Source: Methanoplanus limicola DSM 2279 (lineage in GTDB: Archaea; Halobacteriota; Methanomicrobia; Methanomicrobiales; Methanomicrobiaceae). From it: a stretch of 64,000 bases of DNA. The first letter of the stretch is position 1; the number at the start of each line of letters is the position of its first letter. Below the pieces are notes generated by a model. The model saw only the letters and a program-made list of their open reading frames with translations. It had not been told where the DNA came from and searched no databases. Below, piece by piece: positions 1,387 through 27,863 of this stretch. A program made the position numbers and the translations under genes. Location: the NCBI RefSeq assembly GCF_000243255.1, contig NZ_CM001436.1:1338077-1402076 (forward strand). The letters run 5' to 3'.

Positions 1387-1426
1387 CTGCCGGAGAGTTC
1401 AGATATTCCGGCAGTAATTCTTTTTC
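1387..1426. terminator. Hairpin between convergent thiE and HEAT-repeat gene
   Basis: The inverted repeat CTGCCGG (1387-1393) / CCGGCAG (1408-1414) is followed by a T-rich stretch ending in TTTTT at about 1421-1425. It sits between two convergent genes. Use as a terminator is inferred from position. Confidence 0.5.
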
Positions 1427-4400
1427 ACTTAGGGTTATCCAATGAATCTTTTATCCTCTCAATCAGCAATTCAATGATATCCCTTCTGCTGTTATCCTTA
1501 ATGCCGTCTGCATATCTCTCAAGAACCGGGATTACCCCAGGTCCCGACTCAGCAAGGAATCCGGCAGCAGTTTCAGATACTTCAGGGTCACCGCTCAGAA
1601 CAAGTCCGGCAAGTGCCGGCACAGACTCGTCACCCCCTATGGAGAATATGGTTTTTACAGCAGATGTCCGGTCAGGAGCATCCTCCTCACCTGCATAGGA
1701 GACCAGATATCTGACAGCATAACTGCCCGCCTTCTCAACCTCAGCCCAGTTATTACTCCCGATAAGGTCTACAATATTCTCCCTTCTGCTTATGAATTCA
1801 TATAAATCATTGATCTTCTGCTTTCTCTTCCCGGTCTGGGCATTATCTGCTGCTCTCCTGAGATATGGCAGTGACCTGCCCCCGGCCCGGATCATGAATT
1901 TGGATGCAGTCTCCAAGACCACAGGATCGTCATCAGCGCTCTCGACTGACAGTATCCGGAGTGCATCATCACCTCCGATATTTCCTATAATCCGGGCAGC
2001 CTGTCTTCTTGCATCCGGATTGTGCCCTTTCAGTATAATTATAAGCTCTTTTAAAGCAGGCCTGCCCATCTCTTCAATTCCATGCCAGTCCCCTTCCGAA
2101 AAGAGAGAGCGGAATTTCTGCCTGAATTCAATCTTTTTTATAACCCGGCTCAGTCTTTCAGTCTCATCCGGATCAGACCTCTCTCTTTCAGCACGCTTCA
2201 GTGCCGGAAGAAGAAGGGCACCTTTCCTCAGAACTGCTTCCTCCGCCCTGCCCGATACTGAATCATCAACATCAGAAAGTGCACAGACAAGAAGGGGGTA
2301 GAAGTCCGGGCCGCCCGCTGCGATGATAAATTCGAGTGCCTCTTTTCTCCTGCCGGAATAAGGGTTCTCCATTATATTTTTTACAGCCGGAAATGCAGCA
2401 GAACCTGATCTTTCCAGCTCCTTCCATTCACCCAGAGTTGCAAGATAATATGACTTATCGGTGGGATCTTCCGGAATTATGGAGAGGTCCTTCATTGCAG
2501 ATGCAGCAGTCTCCTTTAAAAGATCATTTTCGTCACTCTTCAGGGCCGACAGCAGTCCAGGCCCGGCTTTTGAACCATAACTTTTAAGGGAGGTGACAGC
2601 AGGCCCGCGGATTCTTCCGTTCTTTGAGGCAAAGAGAGATATGAGAAGCGGTATCGCCCTTTCATCGTCAATCTTACCGAGAATTTCCACAGCCGCAAGG
2701 TTTACCTCCGGATTGTTATCCTTTAAGGCATGGGTCAGGGCATCAAGAATCTTTTTGTGTCCAAGCTTATACAGGGCATATATCAGGGACACTCTGACCT
2801 GAGTATCTTTTTCAACAAAAATACGGTCGAATACTGCATTTGAGGCAACTCTGCTGCCTGTTTCCGACAGCTTTTCTGCCGCCAGTATTTTTATCTCCGG
2901 ACTGCCATAGTTTAAATACCTCATAAGGCCGCTTATTCCAGGTTCACCAAATTCCGGCAGAATTCCGGCAATAATCTCACGAAGTTCGTCATCAGCACCG
3001 CTCATTGTATTCAGAAGAGGCTCAACCGCAGGTTCACCCATACTGATAATCTTCTCAGAAGTAGCTTTTCTTCTCTTTTTATCTTCACTTTTCAGACCTA
3101 TTACAAGCCTTGAGATCTCCATTGAGATCTTCTTCTTAAGCTCAAGCTCTTTTTTGATTATGTCATCGATCTCGTTCTGGGTGAGCTGTTTCTTAATATC
3201 CTTTGCAGCTTTTTCATCCTTCTCGGACGATGCATTCTTTATCAGCTCATCGATCTCATCCTGACTGAGTCTGTCACCCAGAAGTTCGGTCGTCTTCTTA
3301 TTGACAGCATAAACAGATCTATGGAGCAGTTCATCGATCTCATCCTGGCTTAGTTTTTTGCCGAGCAGTTCCCCTGTTCTTTCCTGCCTTTCGGATCTCG
3401 CACCACGGATCAGCTCATCGATCTCATCCTGCCTGAGCTTTCTGTCGAGAATCTTTAAGGCGTCCTCATCATCGGCACCTAAAAGCTGATCAAGCAGTCT
3501 GTCAATCTCCCTCACCGACAGTTTTCTTCTGATAAGCCCGGCGGTTTCGCGGCTCTTCTCCGAAATTTTGCTCAGTTCACGTTTAATTTCCCTCTGCCTG
3601 AATATTTCAAGAATTGTCCCGGCATTCCGCCTGACCTCTTCATCACTGTCCTTTATAAAGCCCCTGACATATGATATAACCCTGAGATCATCTATCTTAG
3701 AGAGGACGCTGAGCATTCCAAGTTTTTCCATCTTTGTCCCCTGAATGCTCACCCTTCTGACTTCGTTCATCAGGTAATTGAACATGAAATTGCTTATCCT
3801 TAAGAGGCCAGCCATTGCCTGATTTCTGACATTCAGCTGCGGATCGTTGAGTGACCGGGTGACCGGGAGAATACCCGAAGGATCGCTTATACCGCTTATT
3901 GCTTTGAGTGAAGATATTCTGACGTTTTCATCAGGTGCAAATATCATATTTTCAAGAAACGGGAGGGCATTGTTACCGTTTTTTGCAACCGATTCTGAGC
4001 ATTCGTCCCTTACGCCCTCATCGGGATCAGCAAAATGTCTTATAAGAATCGGTATTGTCTCCTTCTTCCTCAGTTTTCCAAGGGCATAGGCTGTCGCCCT
4101 CCTGACACTTGCATTCTCATCCTCAATCATATCGAAAAAAACCGTTATTGCCTCATCTGACTGCAGATCACCAAGTGCCTCAATTGCGACAACTCTTACA
4201 CTGCTTTTATCATCTTTAAGGAGTTTAAGGAGGGCATCAGCTGACTTTTTGCCATATCTCTTCAGTGATTCAACAGCCACAATTCTTATAACCGGATCAT
4301 CACTTGCAAGGGCCTGGGCAATCCTTTCAGAATTTATAGCCGAAAAACCGCTTTTCTTAAGGTTCTCCTCCCAGTATTCCACAGAATTCAGGTCAAGTAT

Positions 4401-5543
4401 TTCAGACTCCTTTTTAAGAAGCTCAAGCGCCTCATTCTCTTCGGCTCTCTGGTCCTCTTCCTTAAAATACCGGACTGCATCCAGCGCACCTTTCCTGACA
4501 GCAGGATTTTCTGATCTCTTAGCCTCGCCAATGGCAGCATATGCCGGTTTTCCGATTGAATATAGGGTTTTAAGAGTATTTTCCTTAATTATCGGATTTT
4601 CGTCCCCTAAAAGATCAATGAGGCACGGCAGTGCATATCTGCCCATCTTTGTTACATCATTGTAGCTCCCCCTGACCATCAGTGATTTGGCTTTTAAGTA
4701 ACTGTCGGGAGGCCGCCAGCCAACCTTCTCCAGTGACCAGGAGGCCTCAACCCTGACGGCAAATTCAGGATCGTCAAGTGCCCTTACAATATGTGGTATT
4801 AAGACCGGATCCCTCTTGTCACAGGCAGATTCAATAGCGGCCTGCCTGACAGAAGGATCTTTATCCTTAAGCATTTCGCAGAGCAGATGTACCGAACCGG
4901 TCTCACTTACCCTGGCAAGTGTATGCGCAACCTTCTGCCTGAAATGAGGATCAGGATCTTCTGCCCCAAACCTGAGGGCAGTGAGCGCCGGGCGGCCCAT
5001 CTTCCCGAGCTCCTCCCAGTTTCCGGCAGAGAGGTGATAAAATGATTTTTCAACCGGATTCTGTGAGTCCCAGCCGATGTTATCGAGAGACTTTACTGAC
5101 CCCTCCCTTACCGATTTATCACTGTCCTTCAGAAGTGATACGAGCATATTTTTATGGCTCACGTTCGGGTTTGTGAGATAACCGAGGGCTAAAGCAACAC
5201 CCTGACGTGCTCTTGCCCGTCTGTCATTTATAATTGCGGAGAGCGGCCCGACTATGTCACCGCCCTCTGCTGATATCTGCGCTATTGTCCTTGCTGCACC
5301 ATCCCTTGCATTATCCTGTCCGGTTATCAGAAGATTGACAAAAGTGCCGATATTATCCTGGCTGTAAGACCCCAAAACTTCAGCGGCTCCGCTTCGAATA
5401 TTTTCATTGCCACTGTTCAATGCCTTTAAAAGAGGAATGGCTCCTTTTTTGCCAATTTCCTTCAGCCTTTTGATCGCTTTTTTCCTATCCCCCCTGCTGC
5501 CGGAGTCCAGCAGTTCAAGCAATCCCGTTATCTCATCAGACAC
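1425..5543 (-). CDS. Giant HEAT-repeat scaffold protein with five FliM-like peptides
   Basis: A 1372-residue protein built almost entirely of HEAT/PBS-lyase-type helical repeats, with recurrent signatures such as VRxxAxxALGxL and AIPxLLxxL. No signal peptide or membrane segment is visible, so it is probably a cytoplasmic protein-protein scaffold. The HEAT array is interrupted at about residues 670-795 by a charged helical segment holding five copies, 26-29 residues apart, of a motif of the form LSQDEIDELL (variants LSVREIDRLL, LRQDEIDELI, LTQNEIDDII). This motif closely resembles the N-terminal CheY-binding peptide of bacterial FliM. The start is GTG at 5543 with no clear SD; a downstream start cannot be excluded. 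It appears monocistronic. The function is unknown; the FliM resemblance is from memory of that motif. Confidence 0.85.
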   Translation of the reverse strand: MSDEITGLLELLDSGSRGDRKKAIKRLKEIGKKGAIPLLKALNSGNENIRSGAAEVLGSYSQDNIGTFVNLLITGQDNARDGAARTIAQISAEGGDIVGPLSAIINDRRARARQGVALALGYLTNPNVSHKNMLVSLLKDSDKSVREGSVKSLDNIGWDSQNPVEKSFYHLSAGNWEELGKMGRPALTALRFGAEDPDPHFRQKVAHTLARVSETGSVHLLCEMLKDKDPSVRQAAIESACDKRDPVLIPHIVRALDDPEFAVRVEASWSLEKVGWRPPDSYLKAKSLMVRGSYNDVTKMGRYALPCLIDLLGDENPIIKENTLKTLYSIGKPAYAAIGEAKRSENPAVRKGALDAVRYFKEEDQRAEENEALELLKKESEILDLNSVEYWEENLKKSGFSAINSERIAQALASDDPVIRIVAVESLKRYGKKSADALLKLLKDDKSSVRVVAIEALGDLQSDEAITVFFDMIEDENASVRRATAYALGKLRKKETIPILIRHFADPDEGVRDECSESVAKNGNNALPFLENMIFAPDENVRISSLKAISGISDPSGILPVTRSLNDPQLNVRNQAMAGLLRISNFMFNYLMNEVRRVSIQGTKMEKLGMLSVLSKIDDLRVISYVRGFIKDSDEEVRRNAGTILEIFRQREIKRELSKISEKSRETAGLIRRKLSVREIDRLLDQLLGADDEDALKILDRKLRQDEIDELIRGARSERQERTGELLGKKLSQDEIDELLHRSVYAVNKKTTELLGDRLSQDEIDELIKNASSEKDEKAAKDIKKQLTQNEIDDIIKKELELKKKISMEISRLVIGLKSEDKKRRKATSEKIISMGEPAVEPLLNTMSGADDELREIIAGILPEFGEPGISGLMRYLNYGSPEIKILAAEKLSETGSRVASNAVFDRIFVEKDTQVRVSLIYALYKLGHKKILDALTHALKDNNPEVNLAAVEILGKIDDERAIPLLISLFASKNGRIRGPAVTSLKSYGSKAGPGLLSALKSDENDLLKETAASAMKDLSIIPEDPTDKSYYLATLGEWKELERSGSAAFPAVKNIMENPYSGRRKEALEFIIAAGGPDFYPLLVCALSDVDDSVSGRAEEAVLRKGALLLPALKRAERERSDPDETERLSRVIKKIEFRQKFRSLFSEGDWHGIEEMGRPALKELIIILKGHNPDARRQAARIIGNIGGDDALRILSVESADDDPVVLETASKFMIRAGGRSLPYLRRAADNAQTGKRKQKINDLYEFISRRENIVDLIGSNNWAEVEKAGSYAVRYLVSYAGEEDAPDRTSAVKTIFSIGGDESVPALAGLVLSGDPEVSETAAGFLAESGPGVIPVLERYADGIKDNSRRDIIELLIERIKDSLDNPK

Positions 5544-27482: not shown

Positions 27483-27863
27483 ATGAAGGAATTCTCGATT
27501 TTGATTGTTGAGGACGATGCTATAATATCAATGGATATAGAGCAGAGAGTTCAGAAGCTTGGCCATAAGGTTGTCGGGGTGGTTGATCGTGCAGAGAAGG
27601 CTTTTCGTGCAATAATTGAAAAAAAGCCGGATCTCATTCTGATGGATATCAATCTCAAGGGCGGGATGGACGGAATATCCATTGCCGACAGGCTGTACAA
27701 GGATATGGGTACAAGGGTAATATATATTACAGCATATTCTGATGAGGGTATGAAGGAAAGGGCCGATAAGACGAATCCTTTGGGTTATATTGTCAAACCA
27801 ATCCGTGAAAATGAACTTAACAGGGTTCTGGCAGCCGCGGAATCTGAACTGTCGGAAAGTTAG
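27483..27863 (+). CDS. Single-domain response regulator (CheY-like receiver)
   Basis: A 126-residue receiver domain with acidic pocket D11/D12, phosphoacceptor Asp55 in LILMDINL, the switch Thr83 in YITAYS and Lys105 in GYIVKPI. There is no output domain, so it acts through a protein partner or as a phosphorelay intermediate. It is 9 bp after sensor kinase A with a GAGGGGCAATT SD, clearly one operon. The five FliM-like CheY-binding peptides in the HEAT protein at 1425 are a possible, speculative kind of target for such a stand-alone receiver. Confidence 0.92.
   Translation: MKEFSILIVEDDAIISMDIEQRVQKLGHKVVGVVDRAEKAFRAIIEKKPDLILMDINLKGGMDGISIADRLYKDMGTRVIYITAYSDEGMKERADKTNPLGYIVKPIRENELNRVLAAAESELSES

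Follow-up and report, generated by a model that had tools for sequence, protein, structure and literature searches.

A protein of the methanogen Methanoplanus limicola DSM 2279 carries, between two arms of HEAT repeats, five tandem copies of a 28-residue unit whose core resembles the bacterial FliM peptide that binds CheY. The repeat is real, and the array it forms is under tighter constraint than any other part of the protein. On balance, we favor the view that tandem duplication within this lineage produced an alpha-helical connector between the two HEAT arms, one that most likely presents a repeated binding face. Its resemblance to the FliM peptide is probably no more than any well-capped helix would show.

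Architecture of the scaffold protein

The gene lies in a 64,000-nucleotide stretch of contig NZ_CM001436.1 (positions 1,338,077 to 1,402,076), the whole of which is hereafter called the window; coordinates are positions in the window unless given in Mb or with a locus identifier. The features discussed are as follows.

1425..5543, minus strand: HEAT scaffold protein gene, 1372 amino acids, a single open frame with a GTG start (Pfam HEAT_2, E 9.4e-97)
3621..5543, minus strand: N-terminal HEAT arm, about residues 1-641 (Pfam HEAT_2; paralog alignment up to residues 640-667)
3156..3521, minus strand: five-copy 28-residue array, predicted helical, residues 675-796 (translation of the open reading frame and ortholog alignment)
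3492..3521, minus strand: copy 1, LSVREIDRLL, without the Gln, starting at residue 675
3408..3437, minus strand: copy 2, LRQDEIDELI, starting at residue 703
3324..3353, minus strand: copy 3, LSQDEIDELL, starting at residue 731
3240..3269, minus strand: copy 4, LSQDEIDELI, starting at residue 759
3156..3185, minus strand: copy 5, LTQNEIDDII, starting at residue 787, within the invariant AKDIKKQLTQNEID
1428..3140, minus strand: C-terminal HEAT arm, about residues 802-1372 (Pfam HEAT; paralog alignment from about residue 796)
27483..27863, plus strand: stand-alone receiver domain (Pfam Response_reg, E 7.5e-21), a proposed partner of the array and a poor match

Significant HEAT profile matches (Pfam HEAT_2, HEAT, and HEAT_PBS) run along the length of the protein, with 12 stretches assigned to HEAT_2, and Pfam gives only HEAT-type and related helical-repeat families. 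A sequence-only reading of the window had described five tandem motif copies within this scaffold. We find all five, in one reading frame; their spacing, put at 26 to 29 residues in that reading, is in fact exactly 28, four times over. The FliM-type pattern (LSQxEIDxLL-like) is matched over its core by four of the five copies, the exception being copy 1. When the protein was shuffled 5,000 times, no more than one motif match was obtained, versus the four observed. Searching the 3.2-Mb genome with a FliM-like DNA pattern returned three occurrences, all of them within the array, and a reversed control pattern returned none. Because TRF detected no tandem repeat at the DNA level in the array, the duplications are taken to be old.

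Paralogs from the same genome and from relatives have the same two HEAT arms joined by a short or low-complexity Pro/Ala-rich linker and lack the array, which is thus an insert between the arms. The two from M. limicola itself (G000:C1:775710-778778 and 779092-781125) share the HEAT arms of the scaffold at about 35% identity; neither has the array, and the two-armed one uses a short linker between its arms. These large paralogs, of 1,022 and 677 amino acids, adjoin each other at one locus (L009:10711-16126, equivalent to G000:C1:775710-781125).

Conservation and distribution

Among 232 genomes of the class, we found array-bearing orthologs in 8 (M. limicola included), from three genera of one methanogen family. 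All eight keep the five copies in register, and the only indel among their arrays is a single-residue deletion common to two of them. Between four representative genomes, identity is 66% in the array, 50% in the N-terminal HEAT arm, and 37% in the C-terminal arm. Within the array, the motif (87%) and the upstream TxxLLxKK (83%) are both more conserved than the HEAT arms, and the spacers between motifs are 62% conserved. Even if it docks no receiver, then, this conserved tandem helical insert is the part of a HEAT scaffold under the strongest constraint in one methanogen family. In one ortholog (G013; L017 / L063), the frame is lost just after the array, leaving two overlapping frames, by sequencing error, pseudogene formation, or frameshift.

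The five copies in each of the eight orthologs give 40 units. Every unit has a hydrophobic residue at both position 0 and position 5; S, T, N, or D occurs at position 1 in 38 units, E at position 4 in 39, and Gln at position 2 in 32. The whole conserved unit reads TxxLLGKKLSQDEIDELI.

A search for the motif in other archaea had been proposed. Single matches do occur, scattered across the archaeal phylum and a few-fold more frequent than those of the control, but the tandem form is confined to the array gene, with no second unit in any other protein among 294 genomes of the phylum. We therefore rejected the idea of an archaea-wide motif.

A probable capped-helix connector

The conserved positions fit a known way of starting a helix, the capping box with an N'-N4 hydrophobic pair (PMC4515027): Leu at position 0, S/T/N/D at 1, Glu at 4, and Ile at 5. 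Each 28-residue unit is probably a pair of helices: a short one that ends in LLGKK and, after a tight turn at KL(S/T), another of sequence QDEIDELI, whose start would be set by an (S/T)xxE capping box together with the hydrophobic Leu...Ile pair around it. As a spacer, five such units would have a set length and register, and the repeated conserved face would most likely bind a partner several times over. The Gln at position 2 is unexplained by helix capping, and it is a FliM contact residue.

AlphaFold models were made for segments of 301 and 161 residues from seven or eight related sequences; the HEAT repeats flanking the array were modeled with fair confidence, and the array itself had a mean pLDDT of 52.7 with a pTM of 0.25 in one run and values of <50 over most of its length in the other. 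In these low-confidence models, helices begin at or just past the S/T position in most motifs. Given that low confidence, the helices may instead stand apart from one another along a flexible tether.

The matches in the PDB are all helix starts. The unit profile matched a designed repeat with five LSVDEIKELI units at a period of 33 and a scallop myosin light chain (KLSQDEIDDL), and the array profile weakly matched calmodulin (TNLGEKLTDEEVDEMIREA; E 0.1-0.25). The helix starts of calmodulin (TNLGEKLTDEEVDEMI) and the myosin light chain have nearly the same residues as the array, and the calmodulin likeness spans most of the unit. Both are EF-hand proteins, whereas the array has no significant EF-hand match (EF-hand_7, 14.9 bits against a cutoff of 30), and its Pfam matches to known domains are all weak. 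FliM is absent among the PDB matches listed, from a library that excludes FliM peptides of <20 residues. No receiver binds the myosin light chain, calmodulin, or designed-repeat matches. The array illustrates how easily a capped helix can be mistaken for a docking peptide.

Does the array dock receivers?

The sequence-only reading took the motifs for FliM-type peptides, and the likeness on which it relied is real. The array shares the Leu, Gln, Glu, Ile, Asp, and Leu positions of the N-terminal peptide of FliM and FliY (LSQxEIDALL) and of the CheY-binding end of CheZ. Contacts with CheY are listed for FliM residues D3, S4, L6, Q8, I11, D12, L14, and residue 16 (PMC3774744). Among the four genomes, array positions equal to L6, Q8, I11, D12, and L14 are 87% identical, versus 40% at the noncontact positions 9 and 13, so that, as in the FliM peptide, the CheY-contact positions are among the most conserved. 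The step from likeness to function holds up only in part, since nearly the same sequence occurs also in proteins that bind no receiver and no fitting receiver was found among the 40 examined. A FliM-type peptide forms the N-terminal end of its C-ring protein (FliM, FliN, or FliY); the array, in contrast, is archaeal, has five copies, and sits internally, at residues 675-796 of 1,372. Upstream in each of its units is the conserved TxxLLGKK, where FliM has nothing and needs none.

True docking on the alpha4-beta5-alpha5 face of CheY or another phosphorylated receiver, several copies of which the scaffold would gather, is in our judgment unlikely, although it has some points in its favor besides the contact positions. 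In E. coli CheY numbering, used throughout for receivers, the CheY of this genome keeps a hydrophobic groove (V95, I99, Y106, and V108). Archaeal CheF binds CheY elsewhere than on the groove face (PMC9126983), which leaves the groove free. In Halobacterium, the HEAT_PBS protein OE2401F, like the scaffold an archaeal HEAT-repeat protein, couples the Che system to the archaellum (PMC2666748).

The receivers themselves argue against docking. The basic rim is missing from the genome's CheY: K91, K92, K119, and K122 are replaced by Q, E, E, and N, and the residue at 119, the most important position of the rim on which FliM Asp12 depends, is thus a Glu. The receiver at 27483, named earlier as a possible partner, has K95 and D99 in place of the I95 and A99 that the groove requires; with charged groove positions, it was rejected. 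We examined 40 of the 46 receiver matches in the genome, and none of the 40 combines the groove with a full basic rim (K/R at 119, 122, and 91 or 92). Nor does CheY appear to have coevolved with the array, as the seven array-positive and four array-negative genomes compared share the same residues on its contact face, save for one conservative I99V. CheY sequences of E. coli and T. maritima served as references; the contact residues of the former agree with the published contact table, and the T. maritima sequence also agreed on checking.

Genomic context likewise gives no link to chemotaxis. No che genes were recognized near the array gene at any of seven orthologs, nor were archaellum genes recognized near the orthologs, and the neighboring genes differ between genera. 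The cluster of che and archaellum genes, whose names were read from sequence with Pfam matches supporting CheF and the receivers, lies at about 2.76 Mb, 1.4 Mb from the scaffold gene at 1.34 Mb. OE2401F adjoins cheF in the che region; the scaffold gene and its orthologs do not. Gene order was accordingly rejected as evidence of a link. Nearly all relatives have CheF, but of the 232 genomes from the class, only 8 have the array; this disparity counts against docking, and co-occurrence with a gene nearly universal in the sample is uninformative.

Possible self-association of the array

The helices could instead associate with one another, so that two or more scaffold proteins would assemble via their arrays, an arrangement that we hold to be rather improbable. 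A period of 28 equals four heptads, the units are amphipathic with conserved L/I positions, and the spacer conservation given above would suit such an interface. However, each KL(S/T) turn breaks the hydrophobic spacing, which makes a continuous coiled coil unlikely.

Similar tandem motifs in bacteria

Tandem versions of the motif exist in bacteria. In 84,980 genomes, we looked for pairs of closely placed motifs, Q(D/E)EID followed by QxEID, and obtained 30 stretches, of which 27 lie in a single frame. Among the proteins they mark are FliM, FliN, and CheZ, all expected to bind CheY, but also a Treponema Lon protease, TPR proteins of Hydrogenedentota, and proteins from Bacteroidales, a group without flagella. 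With matches both in and outside chemotaxis, such tandem motifs have arisen more than once.

Proteins outside chemotaxis such as the Lon protease lend something to the idea that the array consists of short peptides on a flexible tether that dock a partner other than a receiver, one restricted to these genera, their likeness to FliM being coincidental. High conservation confined to three genera and the missing link to chemotaxis genes would agree with this, but no candidate partner was found and the neighboring genes vary between genera, and we give the idea little credence. Also improbable is the fullest form of the docking proposal, a multivalent array in an archaeal HEAT scaffold that would gather several phosphorylated receivers, convergent on the bacterial FliM peptide and using the CheF-free face of CheY. 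Were receivers docked in this way, the array would be a convergent solution to signal output and, to our knowledge, the first known FliM-like CheY contact in archaea.

The Lon protease of Treponema sp. UBA1793 (L081:3487-6441) has four tandem L(T/S)Qx(E/D)IDxL units as an insert that separates the Lon lid from the protease domain. Two TPR proteins of Hydrogenedentota (L088:3966-7514 and L091:2-2587) carry several spaced QDEIDxLL motifs in an N-terminal region of low complexity. In a CheZ-family protein of Melioribacteraceae (L096:5079-5888), two QxEIDKL motifs lie at the C-terminus, the end through which the E. coli CheZ binds CheY.
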